Source: Lyophyllum atratum
Taxonomy: Eukaryota; Basidiomycota; Agaricomycetes; Agaricales; Lyophyllaceae
Direction of reading: 5' to 3'
DNA length: 64,000 nucleotides
Assembly (NCBI GenBank): GCA_014905825.1
Contig: JACGCN010000001.1
Location: 3,348,001 to 3,412,000 of the forward strand
How positions within the stretch are numbered: the first letter of the stretch is position 1; every line of letters starts with the position of its first letter. The translations under genes and the position numbers were made by a program. The notes under the pieces are model-generated. The model was not told the origin of the DNA and searched no databases. It saw nothing but the letters and a program-made list of their open reading frames with translations. This document shows, piece after piece, positions 33,056 to 60,339 of this stretch.

Positions 33056-33061
33056 CGCATG
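33056..33061. repeat. Target-site duplication, left copy (CGCATG)
   Basis: The hexamer CGCATG directly precedes the TATGG terminus of the element. The same hexamer follows the opposite terminus at 44304-44309. Confidence 0.85.
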
Positions 33062-35147
33062 TATGGAAAGCGAGACTGGCCAGGTCAGTTTTTGGCACAA
33101 GCCGATGGTTCCCATCACAAGCCGATGATTTCCATCACTAGGGACCCCGTACACTTGTTTGGCTTCGTCTTCAAAACTAACAACGTGCAAGGAATACTCC
33201 GCGAGCAAATGATCGAAGTCCTTTGAACATCGCTCGTGAGGCTAGGTTTTTGGTTCCGTCAAGGCCTGTGCGCGTCTATTATCTCTCTTACAGTGTATTC
33301 CATCCGTGAGCTGAATTGTATCTTCAGCCTCCCAATCTTCCTACTGAATGCCGCTTCATTCAACTGATTTCTAAAGATTTGCCTGATCAACAAGAACATG
33401 GTCTGCCGTGGTGAGTTTCATCTCTAATCTATGAATGTAAGCTTACTCTGACATGGGACGATGCATAGAGTACGACTAAGTTGTTTGAAAGCGTGACCGA
33501 TGCTGCATTGGGACGCGCCTTCGGGTCAGGGTTGAAATAGGTAGCACGAGGAGAACATGGCCCATCCAGGTGAGTTTTCATCCCATTTTATTGATTGTGA
33601 ACATATTCTGATACCATTTTATGCATAGAACGCGAATATGTTGCTCGAAACCGCCGGCGACGCTGCGTTCAGGCGTGCCGAGGCGTCAAAAGTCGAAATG
33701 GGTACCATGAGGAGTACATGGCCCATCCAGGTGAGTTTTCATCCCTATTTTTTGATTGTAGACATATTCTGATACTAATTTATGCATAGAACGCGAATAT
33801 GTTGCTTGAAACCGCCGGCGACGCTGCGTTCAGGCGTGCCGAGACGTCAAAAGTCGAAATGGGTACCATGAGGAGTACATGGCCCATCCAGGTGAGTTTT
33901 CATCCCTATTTTTTGATTGTAGACATTTTCTTATACCATTTTATGCATAGAATCCGAATATGTCGCTCGAAGACGCCGGCGACGCTGCGTTCAGGCGTGC
34001 CGAGACGTCAAAAGTCGAAATGGGTACCATGAGGAGAACATGGCCCATCCAGGTGAGTTTTCATCCCTATTTTTTGATTGTAGACATATTCTGATACTAA
34101 TTTATGCATAGAACGCGAATATGTTGCTCGAAACCGCCGGCGACGCTGCGTTCAGGCGTGCCGAGACGTCAAAAGTCGAAATGGGTACCATGAGGAGAAC
34201 ATGGCCCATCCAGGTGAGTTTTCATCCCTATTTTTTGATTGTAGACATATTCTGATACTAATTTATGCATAGAACGCGAATATGTTGCTCGAAACCGCCG
34301 GCGACGCTGCGTTCAGGCGTGCCGAGACGTCAAAAGTCGAAATGGGTACCATGAGGAGTACATGGCCCATCCAGGTGAGTTTTCATCCCTATTTATTGAT
34401 TGTGAACATATTCTGATACTAATTTATGCATAGAACGCGAATATGTCGCTCGAAACCGCCGGCGACGCTGCGTTCAGGCGTGCCGAGACGTCAAAAGTCG
34501 AAATGGGTACCATGAGGAGTACATGGCCCATCCAGGTGAGTTTTCATCCCTATTTATTGATTGTGAACATATTCTGATACTAATTTATGCATAGAACGCG
34601 AATATGTTGCTCGAAACCGTCGGCGACGCTGCGTTCAGGCGTGCCGAGACGTCAAAAGTCGAAATGGGTACCATGAGGAGTACATGGCCCATCCAGGTGA
34701 GTTTTCATCCCTATTTTTTGATTGTGAACATATTCTGATACCATTTTATGCATAGAATCCGAATATGTCGCTCGAAAACGCCGGCGACGCTGCGTTCAGG
34801 CGTGCCGAGACGTCAAAAGTCGAAATGGGTACCATGAGGAGAACATGGCCCATCCAGGTGAGTTTTCATCCCTATTTTTTGATTGTAGACATTTTCTTAT
34901 ACCATTTTATGCATAGAATCCGAATATGTCGCTCGAAAACGCCGGCGACGCTGCGTTCAGGCGTGCCGAGGCGTCAAAAGTCGAAATGGGTACCATGAGG
35001 AGTACATGGCCCATCCAGGTGAGTTTTCATCCCTATTTTTTGATTGTAGACATTTTCTTATACCATTTTATGCATAGAATCCGAATATGTCGCTCGAAAA
35101 CGCCGGCGACGCTGCGTTCAGGCGTGCCGAGACGTCAAAAGTCGAAC
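33062..35147 (+). repeat. Left inverted arm of the large element
   Basis: It pairs with 42905-44303 on the opposite strand. The outer 340 bases align with several small indels; for example, a stretch with repeated GCCGATGATTTCCATCAC occurs in both arms. The inner part is the 161-bp tandem array. The left arm is longer because it has more units. Confidence 0.85.
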
Positions 35148-35406
35148 TGGGTCTTGCATGGGTTATCAATCATCCTGTATGTCTTACTTCATCAGAAATA
35201 ATTTCAAATTGAACGTTGACTCATACCTTGCAGCCGGACACTATCGGACACTACCGTCTAGGGATGGCACGCCGCAAGAACCAACACAAACCTTGTCGTA
35301 CGCATGTTTTTCCGTCTTCGTGCAATCGTTAATCAATTCGCTATCGCTTCAGCTCCACCAGAAATTATTGAAGAAGCCATTAAATACTACTTTAGCCTGG
35401 GCCTGA
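33398..35406 (+). pseudogene. Left-arm copy of the 34-residue poly-exon repeat gene, interrupted
   Basis: The ATG at 33398 (MVCR, then a split codon) matches the start of the right-arm gene, but the second exon (33469) hits TAA at 33477-33479. Skipping that exon would keep the frame, because every exon is 102 nt. From 33629 on, ten units start every 161 bases (33629, 33790, 33951, 34112, 34273, 34434, 34595, 34756, 34917, 35078). The last unit diverges at about 35147 and runs on in the same frame to a stop ending at 35406. A separate open frame of the units (MLLETAGDAAF...) also exists, but does not follow from the start codon. Confidence 0.5.
33469..35147 (+). repeat. Tandem array of 161-bp exon-intron units, left arm (11 units)
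   Basis: Each unit is a 102-nt block followed by a 59-nt block that starts GTGAGTTTTCATCC and ends TTTATGCATAG, with a branch-like TACTAAT or equivalent. The blocks are therefore an exon and a complete small intron. The first unit is strongly diverged and the last is truncated; the inner units differ by only a few bases. Confidence 0.93.
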
Positions 35407-37038
35407 ACGATGTAAAGATTGCCGAAGAATGCAAAGATCACTATGATCTCAATGTCTACGGCCTAAGGTACGTCCCATGTACTATCTGCAACATTTATAC
35501 TGCAGCTGAGGTTGTGGAACTATCAAGCGTGAAGAGCGTGAAGAGATTTCGAAAGGAATTCAACCTTCACAGTACACGACAACAGCAGTATACGGAGGAT
35601 GAAGTGATGAGGAAGATCCTCGAGATACGGAAAGCTTATACCACACGCGGAGCAGAGACTATTCGCAAGCAATTAAGGATAGAACATGGCATGCGAGTTC
35701 CGCGGTGAGTCATCTCCAAATCCTTCTATATGTTTATAGCTAAACCTAGTGTTCTCTGCATCAGGGAAACAATCAGCAAGTACTTGAGAATTATGGAGCC
35801 CGAGGCCGTCAATCAGCGCCGCGCTCGCCGCTTCAAAAGAAGACGTTTCTATGCAGCTGGAGTCAACGACGTCTGGGCCCAGGACCAGCATGACAAATGG
35901 GGCCCGAAGTACGGTCTCTGGCTACATAACAACATTGATCCATTTACAGGTTTCAACAACTGGCTCAATGTCTGGTGGACGAATCACAACCCCCGACTCA
36001 TTGGTGGATACTACATCAAGGCAGTCCGTGAATTGGGAGGTAAGTCACGACAACTAGCTCAGGTACAACTCCTATTAACTGACTCCTTTATCACAGCCAT
36101 TCCTGTCGCGACGCAGAGCGACCCGGGCACGGAAAACTACGCAGTCGCCAACATTCACACTGTGCTTCGCCAACGACTGGACCTGTCCCTACAAGGCACC
36201 CTTCAGCACATTTTCAAGCACAAGAAAACAAACGTCAAGAGTGAAGCAAACTGGTCCGTCTTCCGACGCGATTTTGCACCAGGCTATGAAGACCTTTTTG
36301 AATTCGGCGTGAGAAGTGGCAAGTACGACATCAACAATCCCCTGGAAAAGTAAGACCAGTTCAAGTGCCAATTGTCAATACTCATTGCCGTAGGCTCATG
36401 TTCCAATGGATTGCTATTCCTTGGCTTCAAACGAAGCTCGACGAGTGGGTGCAGCTCAGAAATCGAACTGCGCCCCGGGCCAACAAGCACAAGGTTCTCC
36501 CCCACGGCATTCCTATCCTGATCCGGCAGAAACCCGCGGCTTTCAATGCTTTGGATTTCAAGGTATGCGTTTTGTATTGTATTTGGACACCATACAACCA
36601 ATCTCTCATTTTCCTTAGATTCCCGTGCCAATGGACCTTGTTGACGAAGTCGAGAAGATATATGCTCCACCCGACCACCCTGTCTTTCAGCTCACGCCAC
36701 CAGAATTCGATTTCCATGCCAATCAGTTCTACTCCGCCCTTGGACGACCCCCTGTAACTTTCGACACATTTTGGGACGTGTACGACGCTTTGAAGGCTCA
36801 ATTTATCGCAGTCGCCAGCCAAGAGGCAGATGTTGAACTGATTTCAATCATCTCCACTCATCGAGATCATACGGCGATTCAGGAAGGCTTGGAGTTGCTT
36901 CAAATGGAGGAGATGCGGGAGGGTGCTGCCAGGGTTGGGAATGAGGACGATGGCTTAGAACATGCGGACTTCACCTCAGAGTCCGAGCCAGAAGGGGAGA
37001 CAGACGATGACCAGGGAATGTCATCTGGCCGGCCTTAG
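35264..37038 (+). CDS. DDE integrase/transposase of the rve superfamily
   Basis: Probable transposase of the surrounding element. The ATG at 35264 gives MARRKNQHKPC. After splicing come helical DNA-binding-like segments (PPEIIEEAIKYYFSLGLND, then EVMRKILEIRKAYTTRGAET). The catalytic core holds WAQDQHDKWG (first Asp, near 35880), LHNNIDPFTGFNNWLNVWWT, TQSDPGTENYA (second Asp, near 36112) and the candidate Glu in VKSEANW (near 36240). A conserved C-terminal region (LPHGIPILIRQKPAAFNAL) and an acidic tail (ESEPEGETDDDQG) follow. Seven or so short introns have good borders and the frame is intact, so the copy may still be active. The upstream array ends about 120 bp before its start. Confidence 0.85.
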
Positions 37039-37226
37039 AATAATAGTACTTCGAATCTTTCAATGGTTTCCTTTCTTTACACGGTTACCTCAATGCTCAT
37101 CGACGGGCCGCATTCTTTCGAAGTTCACGTACGTAACATCACAGATTTTTTTGCTCCTTGCCTCTCTACCACATAGCCACGGTACGATGTCCTATTGCTC
37201 GCCTGCTTTTTCCTGTGGCACTGCAG

Positions 37227-37527
37227 GCGACTGGCTAGTGGAGTCTGTCGAACTAAACCAGGTTTCAGTCCATTGGCCAGTTGCCCGTCGCACCTTGGGA
37301 AAAAGCCAGAACTTGAACAAAGACGCACGCTGATGGTTAACCTCTTTATTCACTAGGTCTTTCAATTGCTGCCATTGGCCCGTATCAAAGGTGAGGTGTC
37401 ACCTGGCTCCATTGTCCTTGCCCCAATTTTCTCTGCCAAGCATTGGGTGACTGGCTGGTGGAGTCTGTCGAACTAGACCAGGTTCCAGTCCGCCATCCAG
37501 TTACCTGCAGCTTGGTGAAGAAAAGGG
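37227..37527 (+). repeat. Degenerate direct repeat between integrase and dioxygenase genes
   Basis: Two copies, 37227-37310 and 37447-37527, share GACTGGCTxGTGGAGTCTGT, CGAACTAxACCAGGTTxCAG and a following CCAGTT-x-CC stretch. The 220-bp spacing and location between two cargo genes suggest an internal duplication of regulatory or terminal sequence. The role is unknown. Confidence 0.7.
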
Positions 37528-37646
37528 CATATCAACTGGGATGCATGCTGAACCCTGCTCTTCAGTGCTCAAGATATTGATGTGGCTTCAAAAATTCAGT
37601 TCACGTAGGGTGAGCATCTTCCAGCTTAATTTTGTTTGCAAGATTA

Positions 37647-39330
37647 ATGATGTGCTTGAATATCTTGAAGACGCGCTCCGGAATGACATTTTCGCCGTTC
37701 CAGATTGTTCCAATCGAAAATCCGACATTCAATCTCTCTGATGCGATAAGGATTGCTCATGAGCGGGGCAACTATGAGGGAGATACAACGCCTGCATCTC
37801 CACCACTTGATCCCCGAGCTGAAGGGTTCTGGACGGCCACCCCATCTCAGCAGCCTGTCTTGGGGTCTGGATCCAATGTTTCCGCTATGCCTCCCCCTGC
37901 ACGCCCTGCTGTCAATGAGCCTTCCGTTGCGCATGCATCCACCCTCCTGCAGCACCAATCATCGCCTGCCCATGCACATGAGGAAAGCACAGGTTTGCCA
38001 TCGAATCGAGATGATAAGCCTACAACAGCAGCAAACCTCAAGCGTTCCTGCTCCGATAGCAACGGGTACAATGCCAGGGGCAAAAGGAGAAACGTGCGCG
38101 TCCATTTAAAGCGACGGAAGAGGCTCGATGTGGATGCCCCTGTGCATGGTCACCATCCAACGCGCCCAGAGATAATCGAGGCCCATGTCAAAGCCGCAAA
38201 ATCCTATAACACTGACCTCCATGCAAAAGAACTGCCTGCAACCAGCTGTGGCTACGCTGCGCGAAATAAATCATCGGATGAAGGCATCTATTTCAGGTCA
38301 TTGAAAGAAGTCCTGGACTTGGGCTATCGCCTTATTGAGTGGGACGGCATGTATGCTTCTTCCCTTATTTTGCTACAGCACATGGCCCATTGTTCTTTTT
38401 ACAGAACTGCCATGCCTCTCGTCTGTAGTGAAGGTCGTATATTCGCGGTTCTTGCAGGCCAGATGGCTGATGATCCCACGTATGCCGAATCTTGCGAACT
38501 AGCCTACGAAGCCATGATGTATGAGGGCCAGGAGGCTCATTTTACAGCAGCAGAATTGAACCATCGTCGCGGTGACTTCCCTGCTGTCAATGTGGGCATC
38601 ACCATGGGACTTGGAGCAACATATCCCACTAACCTTGGTGTCGGCACACATGCTGACATGCTGAAGCGCTTGCTTGCAAATGAGCACATCATTCGCCTTG
38701 CAAACTTTGCAGACAGTAGGCCATCCATTCTTTTATTTACCTGTTTATACTGATATTATCTCAGGCGCCTTCAACCTCTGGGCACCCAATGTACACCGAC
38801 ATTATCGCGAACACCTCGATCCACTTTTCGACAAGCTTTCCTACCTTGAACCCATATTCCCGCGATGCGTCTTTCCAGCAGCTGCATTCAACTTTGGCGG
38901 AAATGTCTGCACAAAATCGCACCATGATAGCATGAATGCGGCGATCGGTTGGTGTGCTATCTTCGGGCTTGGGAAGTACGATCCGAAGAAAGGTGGGCAC
39001 CTTGTACTTCCGGACCTGAAGCTGGTAATCGAGTTCCCTCCTGGTGCCCTTATCATGATACCTTCGGCAACATTAACCCATGCGAATGTTCCTGTTGCAT
39101 TTGGAGATAGCCGAGTCTCCTTCACTCAATACTGCGGGGGAGGATTGATTCGCTATGTGGACAACGGGTACCGCACGGAGGCCGAACTGCGCAAGAGAGA
39201 TCGGAAGATGTATAATGAGATGATGGCTCGCAAGGCTACGCGATGGGACCAGGATCTCAAGCTGTACGATTTATTCAAGGATCGTGTTCCTTCTGTACAA
39301 GCTACGGTAAATGGCACATCCGACAATTGA
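37647..39330 (+). CDS. TET/JBP-like 2-oxoglutarate/Fe(II) dioxygenase
   Basis: Candidate DNA-base (5-methylcytosine or thymine) hydroxylase. Seen: an N-terminal variable part with a basic segment (NARGKRRNVRVHLKRRKRL); the family's entry motif YRLIEWDG, spliced to ITAMPLVCSEGRIFAVLAGQ; AVNVGITMGLGATYPTNLG; FPAAAFNFGGNVCTKSHHDS with the HxD iron pair at about 38919-38930; GGHLVLPDLKLVIEFPPGAL; the distal His in TLTHANVPVAFG; and the 2OG-binding Arg in DSRVSFTQYCGGGLIRYVDN. One intron is 54 nt and another about 50 nt. The start is uncertain (the ATG at 37647 is the first in frame). The frame is intact. Fungal TET/JBP genes are known passengers of KDZ transposons, but no KDZ transposase is visible here. 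Confidence 0.85.
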
Positions 39331-39547
39331 CTGTTAAATTTTTGTCTGCTGGCGCACGAGGCTACTGTAGTTGAGGGCATGTATGGCTTGACAGAGCACG
39401 TAGTTTATATTGAACAACAAGGACATGACTATCAATGTGATATCAAATGAAGATGATGGGATAAAAACTAAGGAGCGACAAGTAGGTTATGACGAAAGGA
39501 AAGTGGTGCATAGTGAGTTGATACTTAAGTGAGTGAAGATTTAGCAG

Positions 39548-42170
39548 TCAACGTGCAACATTGGAGACGTGCGAAATATCCATGGGAGCAGAACCAGAAG
39601 TGGATGCAATCATTATCTGAGACGGAGGCGGGGGAGTTTCGTCATTTGGGATGAGAGGGGTAGTAGATGGCTCAAACAAAGGCCTGGATTCGGAGTTCTC
39701 GCCAGCATCTGTGTCGGAAAGGGGAGTGAGACCATAGTACTCGCAAAACATGTTGCAACAGTGTTCCTTGCGAAAGGTGTCAAAGTAAGCATTCCCGTCG
39801 GCGAAGATGCGATTGTTGGACAGATCGCTAGAGAAGGCAGGCAATTAGGATAACACCATGATAGATAACGTGCAAAATGGAGCTCACGGCGAGGTTATAA
39901 TCTGGGGGTCAGTGAGGAGAGTCCGACCACCTATCAATGCCTTAGCTGGAGTGGACCAAGTAAAATGGCGATGCTTACCTTGGAAGTCTGAGACAAATAC
40001 AGTTCCTTTGGTCTTCTCAAACTGCACATGTTGAGCAAAGGCTAGAAAGCGAGCGCGAATATTCTTTTCTTCGTCTTTGAAAACACGCGGCTTGGGCGAA
40101 TCGTTGTTGAGGTATTTGACGAACCAGCCTTGGTTTTCCTTCTCAATCAGCTCCTCAATGAGGTAGGCCATCTTTTCCTCTGTATCCGAAATCGCAAGTC
40201 CCGTCTTGACGAAGCGCAGGTGCGGCACTTCAAAGGGAGGTTTCTTACCGTAACGAGCATCTTCAATGGCGACGAGGGCATATACAGAGTCCATGAGCGC
40301 GGCAGCCCAGCCAATGCAGTTGATTTCCGTTGTAAGAGACTGAGCCTGCTTGGCCCCGTCGTAAAATGTGGGCTGAGAACTACCTGGCCGCTTGAAGAAG
40401 GCCTGTTTAACGCAGATGCGCATAGACTGGCCACCAAACATAGGCCTTGTCGAGATTCCGGTGTAGGCAGATTTAAAGGAGCCGGAAGTAGGATTGGCCA
40501 TGTTATATGAAAAGGTCATCCGAACCGGGGCGATGTTTTGAATGCCGAGGAAAGCAAGGGGCCTTCTAATGAGATCTTGAAAGGGGATCTGAGGTGTTTG
40601 ATAGAAGCGTGACTCGATTGTCTTAGCATTGACTAGCAGAGATATAGCGCTGTCAATAGAAATCCTGGTACACAGATCATGAGACGCACAGAGTGAGCGC
40701 ATGCTCATCCTCCCGGGGGGAGTTTGGACCACCAATGCTTGCTTGATATCATCAACACTGGGTTCCTCAAGAGCTTCCATGACTCGGATTTTTTTTGAAG
40801 CATCACCAAGTGGGTGCTCGGGCGTCTACATTGCTTTTGTTATAAGTAGACTAAAGCTAAGTTCTCATTGAATACTGACCTCGATATCTTGAGCATTTTT
40901 CGCTGGAGTCGTCCTTCTCAAATGTGTATCCTTTGTCGGTGAGTCAGCCGGGCCTTTCTTGCGCTTTCCTTTGCCCTTTGGGGCGTCGAGAACTTGTTCC
41001 ACAACACGGTCAAGAGAAGTCTGCAAACGGTAGTCATGACAGTCAGTTGCTGAAAGGCAACATAAAGGATATACATACCAGGTTTGAAGATTCTGAAAGG
41101 TCGACTTGAGCCAGGTGTTCGAGAATGGCCTGGTACTTTTCAGGCGCAATAGAAAGCCAGATCTCAATGTCTTTTGCAACAAATTGCTTGACGCTCTTGT
41201 TGTTGCCTTTAAATTTGAAGAACCGCTCAGCTATCGCATCGAAATCGGGGACTCTGGGGAAGATCTCCACCCAATTTTTGTGTCTGAGCTCGCACTCCCC
41301 AATCTCAAGCGGAAATTCGCGGGACCAGACTATATACTGCGGAAGGAGAGCGGTAAATATCATGGCCTTGAGATCGCAAGCTCCAATATGGACAGGAATG
41401 TTGGGGACGCTTTCGACAATATTCTAGGGTGTGGTGTTAGTGACCAAGAACTGCAGAACAAGTAAGAGGCGCTTACGTGTACATAGGTGAAGCCTTTGAC
41501 ATCAGGCAGATTCACAATCATGCGGGCCTGGACGGTGATATTCTCAACGTTTATGCTGCTCGAGTAGGCTTTGCGCGCATATGCATCACGCATCGCTCGG
41601 TATTGCTGATGCGCAGCTTGGTAGCCCGAATGGACGGGAACAGGATGATGCAGCTTTGGGAATTGGAGAGTGCTGGCAGGGTTGAGCGACGACGGAGTAG
41701 CAACGTTGGGCCCCAAAAGCGACTGAGCAGTGGGAACGGGCGGTGGAGGCATGGAGTGATGGACATTCCCTAAGGTGCGGATTAAGACCTGTGGCTCTGA
41801 GAAAGAGGTGAGCTCAATGAAGGATTAAAAAAATAGACAAGCTTACCGCCACGCTGAGCAGCATTAACATGCTGACGAATGGTCTCACCATGATGTACCT
41901 GCTGAAGCGAGGCTTGTACATCTAGTAGGATTTCATCATTAAGAGGCATGGTCGAAAGTGAAGAGTGGACTCACTTAGCGCTTGCGGAGCTTGTCGGAGG
42001 CTGGCCGTCTTCTGGAGATAATAGGTTCGACACCCATTACAGACGAGAAGGCCAGGTTTATTTGACTTGGTGGATGCCATATAGTTGAGCTGGTCCTTGT
42101 CGTCGATGGCCACTTTGCACCGCTGGCAAATCTGTGTCGCAGCCGATGTAATCTCAGCTTCCATTTGCAT
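39548..42170 (-). CDS. Atypical alpha-kinase (MHCK/EF2K type) with N-terminal zinc motif
   Basis: Ser/Thr kinase of the alpha family. The start at 42170 gives MQMEAEITSAATQ, then a four-Cys motif (CQRCK...CNGC) and a Pro-rich linker. After a middle helical region comes the kinase domain: NPTSGSFKSAYTG (glycine-rich), RICVKQAFF (catalytic Lys), FVKTGLAI, AYLIEELI, WFVKYLNND, FAQHVQFEKTKGTVFVSDFQ, LLTDPQIITSP, FADGN, and the zinc-anchoring EHCCNMFCEYYGL that closes alpha-kinase folds. A low-complexity tail ends at VSNVAR. All exons join in frame without corrections. It lies convergent to the dioxygenase, 217 bp apart, inside the element. Confidence 0.85.
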
Positions 42171-42308
42171 GATGGATGAAAGCACAGGGTAAAGAAGGAA
42201 ACGGTGAGATAAATGAGTGAGGATGCAACAGAGGAAGGAAAGGAAGGTGGAAGAGGAGAGAAGAATGGAATAGAGGGAGCGGCGGAAGATTATGGAATGC
42301 TACCAACG

Positions 42309-42328
42309 AGACTGGCCAGGTTAATTTT
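42309..42328 (+). repeat. Internal copy of the element's terminal sequence
   Basis: GAGACTGGCCAGGTTAATTT, about 140 bp upstream of the alpha-kinase start, matches GAGACTGGCCAGGTCAGTTT found 11 bases inside both element termini. It reads in the same orientation as the left end. It may be a transposase-binding site or the remnant of a nested end. Confidence 0.5.
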
Positions 42329-42819
42329 GCACGATCACTTGCTATTTCAAATTTACACAACCATCGCGTGGCGAGACAAACCTCTAAGGACAAACATTAG
42401 CATTACAAAATGGATTTATTAAGTGCCCACATTATGCTCGACACCAGCCAAAAAAGATTGTCATTACATTCGCATTACATTGCCAGAGGTCATGAATCAT
42501 GTAAGTCGAAGACGACATTGAGAGAGGGTTGAGCGCTGGGTTGTACCAGCCGCGACCGCAACAAGGGAGCTCTCAGCCCACCATCGCTCGGCAGAGCCTG
42601 GTACTAAAACCAAGGCGTGCACGTTAGAGATGGTGAGGATGCCGAGGTTGAGGATGGCCCAGCTCACGGCCCGCAGCTCAGCAGTGAGGCGCGGATGGAC
42701 CAGCAGTGGGAGAAGATGCATACGCAGGCGACAGACAGCAACGAGGGGTGTGGAGGGCAGTAGGCCGCAGTGTTACGATATCCAGAGGAGTGAGAAATTG
42801 CTGGAAATGTCCAGAGCAA

Positions 42820-43960
42820 TTAAATGTCGGCAAGTAAGTAGTGGATGTGCAGCGAGGGTTGAGGCTTGTGTGGGTCCATCATGATCGCGGGCGCGGGACT
42901 CAAGGACGTAACATATTCGCGTTCTATGCATAAATGAGTATCAGAAAATGTCTACAATCAAAAGGTAGGGCTCAAAACTCACCTGGATGGGCCACGTACT
43001 CCTCATGGTACCCGTTTCGACTTTTGACGTCTCGGCACGCCTGAACGCAGCGTCGCCGGCGTTTTCGAGCGACATATTCGGATTCTATGCATAAAATGGT
43101 ATCAGAATATGTTCACAATCAATAAAATGGGATGAAAACTCACCTGGATGGGCCATGTACTCCTCATGGTACCCATTTCGACTTTTGACGTCTCGGCACG
43201 CCTGAACGCAGCATCGCCGGCGTCTTCGAGCGACATATTCGGATTCTATGCATAAAATGGTATAAGAAAATGTCTACAATCAAAAAATAGGGATGAAAAC
43301 TCACCTGGATGGGCCATGTACTCCTCATGGTACCCATTTCGACTTTTGACGTCTCGGCACGCCTGAACGCAGCGTCGCCGGCGGTTTCGAGCAACATATT
43401 CGCGTTCTATGCATAAATTAGTATCAGAATATGTCTACAATCAAAAAATAGGGATGAAAACTCACCTGGATGGGCCATGTACTCCTCATGGTACCCATTT
43501 CGACTTTTGACGCCTCGGCACGCCTGAACGCAGCGTCGCCGGCGTTTTCGAGCGACATATTCGGATTCTATGCATAAAATGGTATAAGAAAATGTCTACA
43601 ATCAAAAAATAGGGATGAAAACTCACCTGGATGGGCCATGTACTCCTCATGGTACCCATTTCGACTTTTGACGTCTCGGCACGCCTGAATGCAGCGTCGC
43701 CGGCGTTTTCGAGCGACATATTCGGATTCTATGCATAAAATGGTATCAGAATATGTTCACAATCAAAAAATAGGGATGAAAACTCACCTGGATGGGCCAT
43801 GTACTCCTCATGGTACCCATTTCGACTTTTGACGTCTCGGCACGCCTGAACGCAGCGTCGCGGGCGTTTTCGAACGACATAGTCGTATTCTATGCATCAT
43901 TCCGTGTAAGAACAAGCTTACAATCGTACGTTACAGATGGAAGTCACCAGGGCAGACCAT
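42820..43960 (-). CDS. Right-arm poly-exon gene encoding 34-residue tandem repeats
   Basis: A complete spliced reading frame can be built. Exon 1 (ATG at 43960, 13 nt, MVCP plus one base) is followed by six exons of 102 nt starting at 43889, 43728, 43567, 43406, 43245 and 43084, and a final exon from 42923 to TAA at 42820. The sum is 729 nt, or 242 residues, with no stop. Each middle exon gives one repeat of the form E-(R/S)-EYVARxRRRRCVQACRD, then VKSRNGYHEEYMAHP. Some differences between units are silent in this frame (GTT/GTC, AAT/AAC). The product is basic, Cys-containing and unlike any family I recognise. Whether it is translated is not shown by sequence. Confidence 0.5.
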
Positions 43961-44303
43961 GTTCTTGTTAGTCAGGCAATCTCTAGAAATGAGTTGAATG
44001 AAGCGGCATTCCTACGAAGAGTGGAAGGCTGAGAATACAATTCAGCTCATGAATGGGAAACATTGTAAGAGATAATGGACGCGCAGAGGCCCCAAGTTGA
44101 CGCAAAGTTGACGGAAGCTTGACGGAAGCAAAAACCTAGCCTCACGAACGATCATTCCCAATTGCATGCTGTTACTGTGTTCTAGAGATGAAGCCAAACA
44201 AGTGTACGGGGTCCCTAGGGATGCTTGTGATGGAAATCATCGGCTTGTGATGGAAATCGTCGGCATCTCCCAAAAACTGACCTGGCCAGTCTCGCTTTCC
44301 ATA
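42905..44303 (-). repeat. Right inverted arm of the large element
   Basis: This is the reverse complement of the left arm, outer end at 44303. It carries seven 161-bp units against eleven in the left arm, and a first unit (43889) without the stop codon present in the left copy. Confidence 0.85.
42923..43889 (-). repeat. Tandem array of 161-bp exon-intron units, right arm
   Basis: Six full 102-nt exon blocks and the start of a seventh occur at an exact 161-base spacing, each preceded by TATGCATAG and followed by GTGAGTTT. They face the centre of the element, as in the left arm. Confidence 0.93.
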
Positions 44304-44309
44304 CGCATG
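44304..44309. repeat. Target-site duplication, right copy (CGCATG)
   Basis: It directly follows the CCATA terminus of the large element and is identical to 33056-33061. Confidence 0.85.
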
Positions 44310-57329: not shown

Positions 57330-57441
57330 TATGGCAACAGGGACTGACCAGCTCCCTAACCGACGGTCAAAGCCGTAATTTGAGCTCCGCCATCAACCAA
57401 ACAAATCCAGGACTCAGGACCCCAGATGTATCAATCTAATC

Positions 57442-57950
57442 TCTGATGCCCAAAAGCGGTCATTCTCCCATCGTCCCACCTATATCTTCAAATGGGTGAT
57501 TTTTGAATGAATATCCTTTGGCAAGGTAGCTGGCATATGGCTACTGGTTCTATTCCCAAGCTCAGACTTTAAAAAACTAGGAATAGTGTAGACTTGGAAG
57601 GCATACACTGTCTGATGCCCAAAAGTGGTCATTCTCCTATTGTCCCACCCATAACTTCAAATGGGTGGTTTTTAAATGAATATGCTTTGGCAAGGTAGCT
57701 GGCATATGCCTACTGGTTCTATTCCCAAGCTCAGACTCTAAAAAACTAGGAATAGTGTAGACTTGGAAAGGCATACACCGTCTGATGCCCAAAGTGGTCA
57801 TTCTCCTATTGTCCTACCTATAACTTCAAATGGGTGGTTTTCAAATGAATATCCTTTGGCAAGCTGGCTGGCATATGCCTACAGGTCCTATTCCCAAGAT
57901 CAGACTTTAAAAAACTTGGAAATTTTTAAAAGTGTAGACCTGGAAAGCCA
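57442..57950 (+). repeat. Three tandem copies of a 169-170 bp sequence
   Basis: Copies start at 57442, 57611 and 57781, each with TCTGATGCCCAAA. They contain CTTTGGCAAGxTxGCTGGCA and CTATTCCCAAGxTCAGACTx. They lie directly inside the left inverted repeat of the second element. No coding pattern or splice signals are seen. Confidence 0.92.
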
Positions 57951-58446
57951 GATAATATAGCGGATGATAACAAATTGACCCAAAATGTGACGGTAGTCTC
58001 CAGGTAAGAACTGGTGTAAGTCCTGTATTCGTAAAACTGGCTATCATATAATAAAGCAGTTCTTTATATACGAGAGCCTGGTCTATCAACTGATAGGATA
58101 AAGAAACTACCACAGAGTGGGTAAAGTGAGTAATCGTGCCGCTCAGTGTCACAGGTAGTCACATCGCGCTCCAGGCATCGCGAGAGTCGAGGGATGACTA
58201 AAGAATTGATATAAGTAGGGGGGAAGGGAAGAGGAACATATTCTGGATATGGTGTAGAACTTTTGTGAACTGATGATCTAAATTGAAAGAATAATTGAGA
58301 TAAGTGTCGAAAAGGTTATTGAGTGGTTAAGAAGCAACGAGAAAGTTACTGCTCCATATTCTGAGAGTCCGACTCCGAGGACTCCTTTTCCTTCCCCTTG
58401 CCCTTAGGATCCGACCCCGCCTTCGCCTTGCGAGCTTCACTGTCGC

Positions 58447-60103
58447 TCAGAGTCTCCATGACTGCATTCGGACTGAGGGGAGTAGGGGCTCGTCGGAGAG
58501 TGCTGGTCCTCGTCCGTTATTCTGGCGCTGCTGCTGCTGTTGGTGCTGATTCTTCTCCTTTCTACGATGGTACTGGAAGGACTTGCGCGCGTTCTCGCCA
58601 TGAGGGCGGCACAATGCCTGTACCACGTCTTGAAACGCCCGTTTGTCGATGTCACCGCTAAGACGGTCGATGAGACCGAGGCCGACGAGTGGTAGAATCC
58701 CGGAGTCGATGAAGGATGTGGGAAGAATGTGGGATGGCATGGTGGTATGAGGTATACTCCATTTATTACTCTGGTAGTTGAACTCGCAGACCTTGTATAA
58801 GAAATTGGCCGAGTTGAAGTATTCTGCAAACTTGGGATATCTGAGTGGGAAGATCAATCGGAAGTCCTCGTTGGCATGGACAGCTTCGTTGAACTTGGTG
58901 AAGCAGCTAGTTGCAACGGGTGGATCTTGTACTTGTTTCCCGTTTTGGCGTGTTTGATAATAACACATTTAGACTCTGGGTCTACGGAAAGATGAGGGTG
59001 TCGAGGGGTTTTGTTGTGGTTCGGAGGACCCATGCCATAGAGGGAGAGTGATGAGACAGTGATGAAGGGTGAGGAAGGGGATGGAAGGACGACCTCGTCA
59101 TTTTTAATGAGAGGTAATTGCAAATGACCTAAAAATACCTGCGGGTCGCCTTGTGGCTCTCCTCCAGCCCGGATATAGTCTCTAGTCAAGGGCGTCAGAT
59201 ACAGCTCCAGCAAATGGAGCTCGACCACCTGGGAATGAGTCATCCAGGTCTTATCACCGGCTTTCCACACCACCTTGAACATGGCGTTAGTTCGCCACGA
59301 TCTTGTCGGCAGCCCATTGTTTTCGCTCTCAGTCGATTCCACGATCTGACTGTCGAGATGACCAGGAACAGCCGGTCATCATTAGGTTTATGGATACGGA
59401 GGAGGGACACACGTCGTGGATTCCGCGTTGCCGCATGGTAGAGGGAATATCAACTCGGAATGAGTTGTTCCCGAAGCTCTTGGTGATCGGGTATGGTCCC
59501 ATGTATTTCGGGATGAGCTTGCGTGCTAGTCCCTTTGGAAACGTAAGGTTCTTCGTGGAGAGATAGGCAAGATTCCCTTCCTCGAAAGGAGAGATCTGCC
59601 GACGATGATTCGTGAGTCGAGTCTGTTTCACTCGAGGGGCCAAAATGCTATCGTGCGCTGTCAGTAATTTAGAAATCCTGCCAAGTTAAAAAGCGTACAT
59701 CTGAATCTAAAGTTGAGGGTTTACAAGAATTAGTGAATCAGACGCATTGATAGAATGTGTGACATACCTGAGTCCAGTAATCCTCGCCATTTCCATCCCG
59801 GAACTTCAAAATAACATTGCGAGGTGATGGTTCAGTTACGACAAGTTGGAGCTTGTGATTTGAGATTGGAATATTTTCTAGGGAGTGGTATTTAGGAGGG
59901 AAAACACCCTGTTAGACAATAGTTGAGGAAGGAACAGGGTACACATGTCCTTCAGTAGCCAAAGAACCCGGTGGGTGGTTTCCCTTCTCCTCTGATGTGG
60001 CTTCACCCCAGACAGCCTCTAGAATGAGATCTTCTGCCGGAGTTTCCTCTAGGAAATGTTGGATTTGAAAACGATCAAGGACTCCTTCACCAAATTCAGG
60101 CAT
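58447..60103 (-). pseudogene. Retroelement-derived (Ty3/gypsy pol C-terminus) chimeric gene, broken
   Basis: Upstream part: the ATG at 60103 (MPEFGEGVLDRFQIQHF), spliced to VFPPKYHSLENIPISNHKLQ and FRDGNGEDYWTQ, a non-retroviral-looking N-terminus. The middle is typical of the integrase tail of Ty3/gypsy polyproteins (AHDSILAPRVKQTRLTNHRR, PFEEGNLAYLSTKNLTFPKG, LARKLIPKYMGPYPITKSFG, then SLLRIHKPNDDRLF and MFKVVWKAGDKTW). Two frame breaks near 59400 and 59430 interrupt this part. A Gln-rich segment follows and ends at 58447. It looks like a captured, decaying retroelement piece within the second element. Confidence 0.55.
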
Positions 60104-60339
60104 GGCAGAAGCAGATGAGATGAGCAGACGCAACGGGATGTCATTGTGAGGAGCAATAAATACAAAATAAATTTCAAGTAGCTGACTGAGTGATTGAATC
60201 GGCCGGGATGGCTGACTGATCAGCAGAGATTAGATTAATACATCCGGGGTCCTGAGTCCTGGATTTGTTTGGTTGATGGCGGAGCTCAAATTACGGCTCG
60301 GCACGTCAGTTAGGGAGCTGGTCAGTCCCTGTTGCCATA

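Follow-up and report, generated by a model that had tools for sequence, protein, structure and literature searches.

Why does a mushroom transposon carry, beside its transposase, a putative DNA-modifying dioxygenase and an alpha-kinase? The question is raised by a DNA transposon of 11,242 bp in Lyophyllum atratum, at positions 33062-44303 of the stretch analysed here (the window, 64,000 nucleotides of contig JACGCN010000001.1). Its genes are ordered transposase (+), TET-like dioxygenase (+) and alpha-kinase (-), and in this copy all three reading frames are open across predicted introns, in gene models built by hand from splice signals. Judged by its ends, its target-site duplications (TSDs), a match to PF24764 and the predicted fold of the transposase core, the element is an autonomous DNA transposon of the IS3EU superfamily, with an integrase-type transposase that is not of the KDZ (Kyakuja/Zisupton) kind. 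We consider it probable that the kinase is a standing accessory of this autonomous IS3EU transposon and its relatives, and that one subfamily has added a TET-like gene whose product weakens silencing.

Ends, copies and transposase

The first-pass annotation of the locus had proposed a transposon with inverted TATGG ends and a CGCATG duplication, enclosing an intact integrase and two intact cargo genes. This description was borne out by terminal inverted repeats (TIRs) of ~80 bp (91% identity, the arms being aligned as 81 nt including one TSD base), by a perfect 6-bp TSD and by the three open genes. A search with the termini, as the annotation had advised, was made in the 64.8-Mb assembly with up to 3 mismatches allowed: the 23-bp end occurred four times, always exactly, forming two inward-facing pairs, and the reversed-pattern control gave 0 matches. 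The second pair (C86:1113957-1138932) lies on a different contig, has GCTTCC on both sides and encloses the same three genes. This second copy reaches 24,976 bp, chiefly because a 13-kb retrotransposon, Gypsy-like by our reading of its open frames, sits in the kinase gene and splits it at the equivalent of window positions 41711-41715, with a 5-bp overlap. The cargo of the other copy is thus the same trio, with the kinase interrupted, and neither of the outcomes that the annotation had named as refuting it was obtained. Over the core (transposase start to kinase start) the two copies show 9 differences in 6,912 aligned bases, and their flanks are dissimilar (~1 kb around the C86 copy compared with ~9.8 kb of window flanks).

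A relaxed terminal pattern, TATGG..GACTGRCCAGNT, recovered 21 ends genome-wide (2 in the reversed control), which form 8 inward-facing pairs and leave 5 ends unpaired; perfect 6-bp TSDs bound all eight pairs (Table 1). Two of these pairs delimit relatives that lack the TET-like gene (C81:480555-491560 and C65:501487-533886). They share with the element the TATGG..CCATA ends, the 6-bp TSDs, the transposase (31-38% identical in tblastn pieces) and the alpha-kinase, and no TET match fell inside their bounds in a genome-wide search (C81 being examined whole and C65 over 9.4 of its 32.4 kb). What lies between the IS3EU ends at C65 is either a set of nested insertions or an unusually large cargo. 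Another IS3EU-type insertion is present in the window itself, 3,010 bp long and with TATGGCAACAGGGACTGACCAGCT ends; it resembles the C81 element in ends and array and has no significant match to the transposase, TET-like or kinase protein.

The transposase matches PF24764 at 33.8 bits (cut-off 26), which answers the profile check proposed for the integrase; it also matches the IS481 model NF033577 at E 1.1e-6, yet far under that model's own cut-off. The predicted fold of its core resembles IstA and retroviral integrases, and the D/D/E residues are conserved. Database protein P0121 is the transposase of the second copy (100% identity and coverage); its length and that of our model are one residue apart, with the discrepancy at the first splice junction. 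According to passages of PMC10045372, IS3EU transposons end in TA..TA and usually have TSDs of 6 bp; the fungal members, according to passages of Kojima 2025 (PMC12730594), have TAYGG..CCRTA ends and TIRs above 30 bp. The ends and TIRs of the element fit the fungal description, and its TSDs are of the length usual for the superfamily. The earlier view that the transposase is of a type other than KDZ therefore stands: PF24764 is matched over its cut-off and no KDZ match lies within 12 kb of either copy. Movement was most likely by cut-and-paste, the two insertions showing the hallmarks of a DDE enzyme. Such a transposase, with a catalytic core like that of IstA and retroviral integrases, would join the TATGG..CCATA ends to the target with a 6-bp stagger.

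Table 1. Features of the element in the window, and end-pairs of the relaxed terminal pattern with their TSDs
Feature	Position	Strand	Details
Left TSD	33056..33061	no strand	CGCATG
Left TIR	33062..33141	+	starts TATGGAAAGCGAGACTGGCCAGG; ~80 bp, 91% identity between arms
Left subterminal array	33534..35152	+	~10 units of 161 bp
IS3EU-type DDE transposase	35264..37038	+	7 predicted exons, 479-480 aa
TET-like 2OG-Fe(II) dioxygenase	37632..39330	+	3 predicted exons, open from 37632
Alpha-kinase	39548..42170	-	8 predicted exons, 748 aa
Internal terminal-motif copy	42291..42321	+ (left-end orientation)	TATGGAATGCTACCAACGAGACTGGCCAGGT; preceding 6 bases unlike CGCATG
Right subterminal array	42911..43897	-	~6 inverted units of 161 bp
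Right TIR	44224..44303	-	finishes CCATA; ~80 bp, 91%
Right TSD	44304..44309	no strand	CGCATG, perfect match to left
End-pair	window 33062-44303		TSD CGCATG
End-pair	C86:1113957-1138932		TSD GCTTCC
End-pair	C81:480555-491560		11,006 bp; TSD TAGCAG
End-pair	C65:501487-533886		32.4 kb; TSD CAAGAT
End-pair	C80		TSD GTTTCG
End-pair	C108		TSD GTCCAG
End-pair	C102		185 bp; TSD CATGCC
End-pair	window 57330-60339		3,010 bp; TSD ATCCTC

The subterminal arrays, which like the other insertion in the window had gone unlisted in the first-pass annotation, sit upstream of the transposase (left) and of the kinase (right). Each unit of the left array holds a 59-bp intron-like stretch, GTGAGT..ATAG, with ~102 bp between one such stretch and the next; in both copies together all 36 intron-like pieces are 59 bp long and have these splice-like ends. 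The left array has 14 units in the second copy compared with 10 in the window. The 102-bp stretch has two open frames out of three, and it was not called protein-coding because synonymous versus non-synonymous variants favour no frame. The internal copy of the terminal motif precedes the kinase start by 121 bp; two units may be combined in this element.

The kinase as partner and the TET-like gene as accessory

The kinase carries an N-terminal CxxC..CxxC and the motifs DFQG, TDPQI and HCCNMFC. It matches PF02816 (Alpha_kinase) at 3.4e-15 (57.1 bits, cut-off 21.3) and, over the DFQG/TDPQI/HxCN stretch, eEF2K at 2e-6. An alpha-kinase lies less than 6 kb away at eight of the nine loci found with this transposase, the sole exception (C60:752065) being a 59-residue transposase match. 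None of seven further PF24764 loci has an alpha-kinase within 12 kb, which rules out kinase linkage as a rule for all integrase-core genes and confines our claim to the nine loci; among the 20 listed kinase loci, 12 are away from such a transposase. The layout of the two genes varies, from convergent in this element to same-strand at C65 and C81 and divergent at C64:2911. The TET-like gene is clearly present at two of the eight kinase-linked loci. For this transposase and its relatives, the alpha-kinase is thus the partner that stays constant, and the TET-like gene an accessory. A joint capture of the DNA-modifying enzyme and the kinase had been proposed; both are indeed carried, but these counts show that the kinase was not captured together with the TET-like gene. 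A fused kinase-TET protein of a Coprinopsis sp. (P0075) was considered as the same element elsewhere and was dropped, since its kinase portion shows no significant similarity to the kinase of the element (best E 0.12).

The TET-like protein probably starts at ATG 37647 or 37650, to judge from the N-termini of its relatives; the sequence of database protein P0001 (446 aa) recurs in our model without a mismatch and begins 85 residues later, at 37887. Its frame is open in both copies. The predicted fold is like those of CcTet, NgTET1 and human TET2 and comes closest to TETs (as ranked among Foldseek's own top 1000), with an HxD..H iron site, which points to a member of the TET/JBP family. Nearly all of the 129 aligned rows of this family retain the iron-binding residues and an Asn (128 of them the HxD Asp). 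Passages of Kojima 2025 (PMC12730594) divide transposon TETs into PU, AG (CcTet-like, with Gly/Ser at 331 and Asp at 337) and PE (HxE) types. By spacing from HxD, the family of the element has Asn at the 331 position (129/129 rows) and Cys at 337 (127/129), reading HxDxxN, and so bears neither the AG nor the PE marks. CcTet of Coprinopsis cinerea, a TET dioxygenase of solved structure, is 12% identical to the protein, its Gly331 and Asp337 being replaced, again by spacing, by Asn and Cys. In the L. atratum genome, the best of 18 Tet_JBP matches (L084, the sole one examined) reads HTDRFSRACWYD, with the Ser and Asp expected for AG. In human TET2, Asn1387 occupies the Gly331 position and hydrogen-bonds 5-methylcytosine (5mC), according to passages of PMC11040006. 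The Asn of the element is therefore compatible with ordinary 5mC recognition, the correspondence being one of spacing and not of residue-level superposition.

Where could the TET-like gene have come from? A search for its family returned 79 matches, which we grouped into 55 loci. A KDZ transposase match (from a list including a few below cut-off) lies within 12 kb of 25 of them, at 2.4-3.6 kb in 21 cases, with ~2.4% expected per locus. An integrase of the set found with our transposase lies within 12 kb of three; the third (C71:474824) is 11 kb from it, and its TET may not be part of the same element. No Plavaka match lies within 12 kb of any of the 55. KDZ transposons with TET thus share the TET family of the element and have a transposase of a different superfamily. 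A single TET lineage is linked, within one genome, to both KDZ and IS3EU, superfamilies that are unrelated to each other. A 2014 PNAS paper reportedly treats KDZ and TET/JBP together. The agaricomycete AG-type TETs show no such crossing between superfamilies in the surveyed passages of Kojima 2025 (PMC12730594), so the lineage of our element behaves differently.

We also built a tree from 46 domain rows of our own choice out of the 129, rooted, with uncertainty, on P0116/P0110. There the TET of the element falls in a clade of 24 sequences (ultrafast bootstrap, UFBoot, 97) with proteins of Lyophyllum, Termitomyces, Arthromyces, Tephrocybe and Tricholoma. KDZ-linked TETs fall outside this clade; those of its members that come from this genome all lack a KDZ match within 12 kb. 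Given this pattern and the uncertain root, capture from a KDZ-type source is plausible only, as far as the sequences go. No rust protein appears by name among the best 120 of 155 matches in the TET profile search. Other TET-family loci deserve mention. Outside the two copies and a palindrome on C64, the nearest relatives in this genome are C62:62286, C79:72556, C130:187616 and C64:2773890 (58-67%), with no KDZ, Plavaka or transposase-set integrase match within 12 kb. The palindrome (C64:618961-637429) is a decayed TET and kinase pair arranged as an inverted duplication, whose arms are 99.97% identical in the 3,606 bp that were set side by side; its homology to the element begins within the TET gene, and no transposase was detected in the portion examined. 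A TET-family match also lies at C66:800385-805810, ~4 kb from one of the seven other PF24764 loci, which could be chance.

What the TET-like gene may do for the element

We infer transposition activity and a substrate for each cargo enzyme. The likeliest role of the TET-like protein would be to oxidise 5mC on or near the element, which would weaken methylation-based silencing, and the kinase would probably tune either the transposase and transposition or a host chromatin factor. That the cargo controls host silencing, suggested at the outset as a possibility, is still an inference.

Several results weigh against this reading. Pfam Tet_JBP (PF12851) gave no match to the protein up to E 1 and matched just 5 of 53 aligned members of its family at E <=0.01 (best 2.2e-5), and sequence searches of solved structures found no TET with the protein, with the family profile or with P0116; TET membership thus rests on the predicted fold. 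The empty site with a single CGCATG that had been anticipated was sought with the joined window flanks, which matched nothing beyond the flanks on either side of the occupied site, so this assembly holds no empty allele that we could find. CpG transitions account for 6 of the 9 core substitutions between the TET-bearing copies and, when the alignment is taken in full with the arrays, for 20 of 79, compared with 9/19 (C65 vs C81 core) and 24/58 (C64 vs C71) in TET-less pairs. These shares give no sign that the TET spares its element from methylation-linked mutation, and the idea that it shields the element from CpG decay is, in these small numbers, unsupported. The observed/expected CpG ratio stands at 0.81 for the core, 0.93 for the element as a whole and 0.71 for the C81 element; elsewhere in the window, 12 pieces of 7 kb that partly overlap give 0.81-1.04.

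Could the TET-like gene be a hitch-hiker that was caught by chance between transposase and kinase and does nothing for the element? The prevalence of CpG transitions in the core would suit this explanation, as would the scarcity of the gene: beyond the two clear cases among eight kinase-linked loci, there is the C71 match 11 kb off, and in the stretches examined at C65, C81 and C64:2911 the sole TET match is a chance-level piece (E 0.64). Nevertheless, the gene is open in both copies, its Fe-binding residues and Asn are conserved in nearly all aligned rows, and the same slot is TET-filled in all TET-bearing IS3EU elements reported in the consulted passages of Kojima 2025 (PMC12730594). We therefore hold this explanation to be unlikely, though deserving of attention.

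We give about the same modest credence to a second possibility, that the TET writes oxidised bases as a signal rather than removing 5mC, or acts untargeted on all transposons. Untargeted oxidised methylcytosine over transposons in Coprinopsis and Laccaria is discussed in passages of Kojima 2025 (PMC12730594), and the genome holds, besides the 55 TET-family loci listed, 18 Tet_JBP matches (14 over cut-off), so that one copy is unlikely to act alone. Finally, the three genes could be chance neighbours, or the boundary an artefact of assembly. The kinase is uninterrupted in just one of two copies, but these copies lie on separate contigs with different TSDs and dissimilar flanks, the kinase is linked at 8/9 transposase loci, and the 23-bp ends, paired twice and each time with their own TSD, already contradict such an explanation, which we regard as exceedingly improbable.

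Comparison with published TET-bearing IS3EU elements

The first-pass annotation was aware of no earlier description of an element with these genes, a statement contradicted by Kojima 2025 (PMC12730594), where passages report TET-bearing IS3EU elements in seven species of Pucciniales (rusts) and in the truffle Tuber indicum, all with the TET between a transposase and an alpha-kinase of opposite orientation. For Agaricomycotina, the same passages list Kyakuja, Zisupton, EnSpm, Plavaka and Helitron2 as TET-bearing types and name no IS3EU, and we found no report of an agaricomycete case in the portions consulted of the literature on IS3EU, Kyakuja, alpha-kinase, fungal TET and transposable elements of L. 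atratum. What is added here is the Agaricomycete case, the differing TET type and the contrast between a constant kinase and an optional TET; the gene set itself was already described.

We tentatively raise, as a real possibility, that mushroom IS3EU elements built the trio of transposase, TET and kinase independently of rusts and truffles, through a fourth TET type (HxDxxN) set apart from AG and PE. If so, different TET lineages would have come to occupy this one position, flanked by transposase and kinase, on at least three occasions, and such a recurrence would point to selection for a TET working with the kinase. TET-bearing IS3EU elements are in any case extended to mushrooms, and the presence of relatives with and without TET in one genome offers a natural comparison for the role of a transposon-borne methylation eraser.

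The likeness to the elements of Pucciniales and Tuber indicum, as presented in those passages, is close: they share with ours the 6-bp TSD, the TAYGG..CCRTA ends, the TIRs above 30 bp and a TET placed between an opposed transposase and kinase, and the TET has the orientation of the transposase here as in three Puccinia families. The element differs from them in its Agaricomycete host (Agaricales, Lyophyllaceae), and its TET, with neither the Gly/Ser331 and Asp337 of AG nor the HxE of PE, is set apart from those two types.

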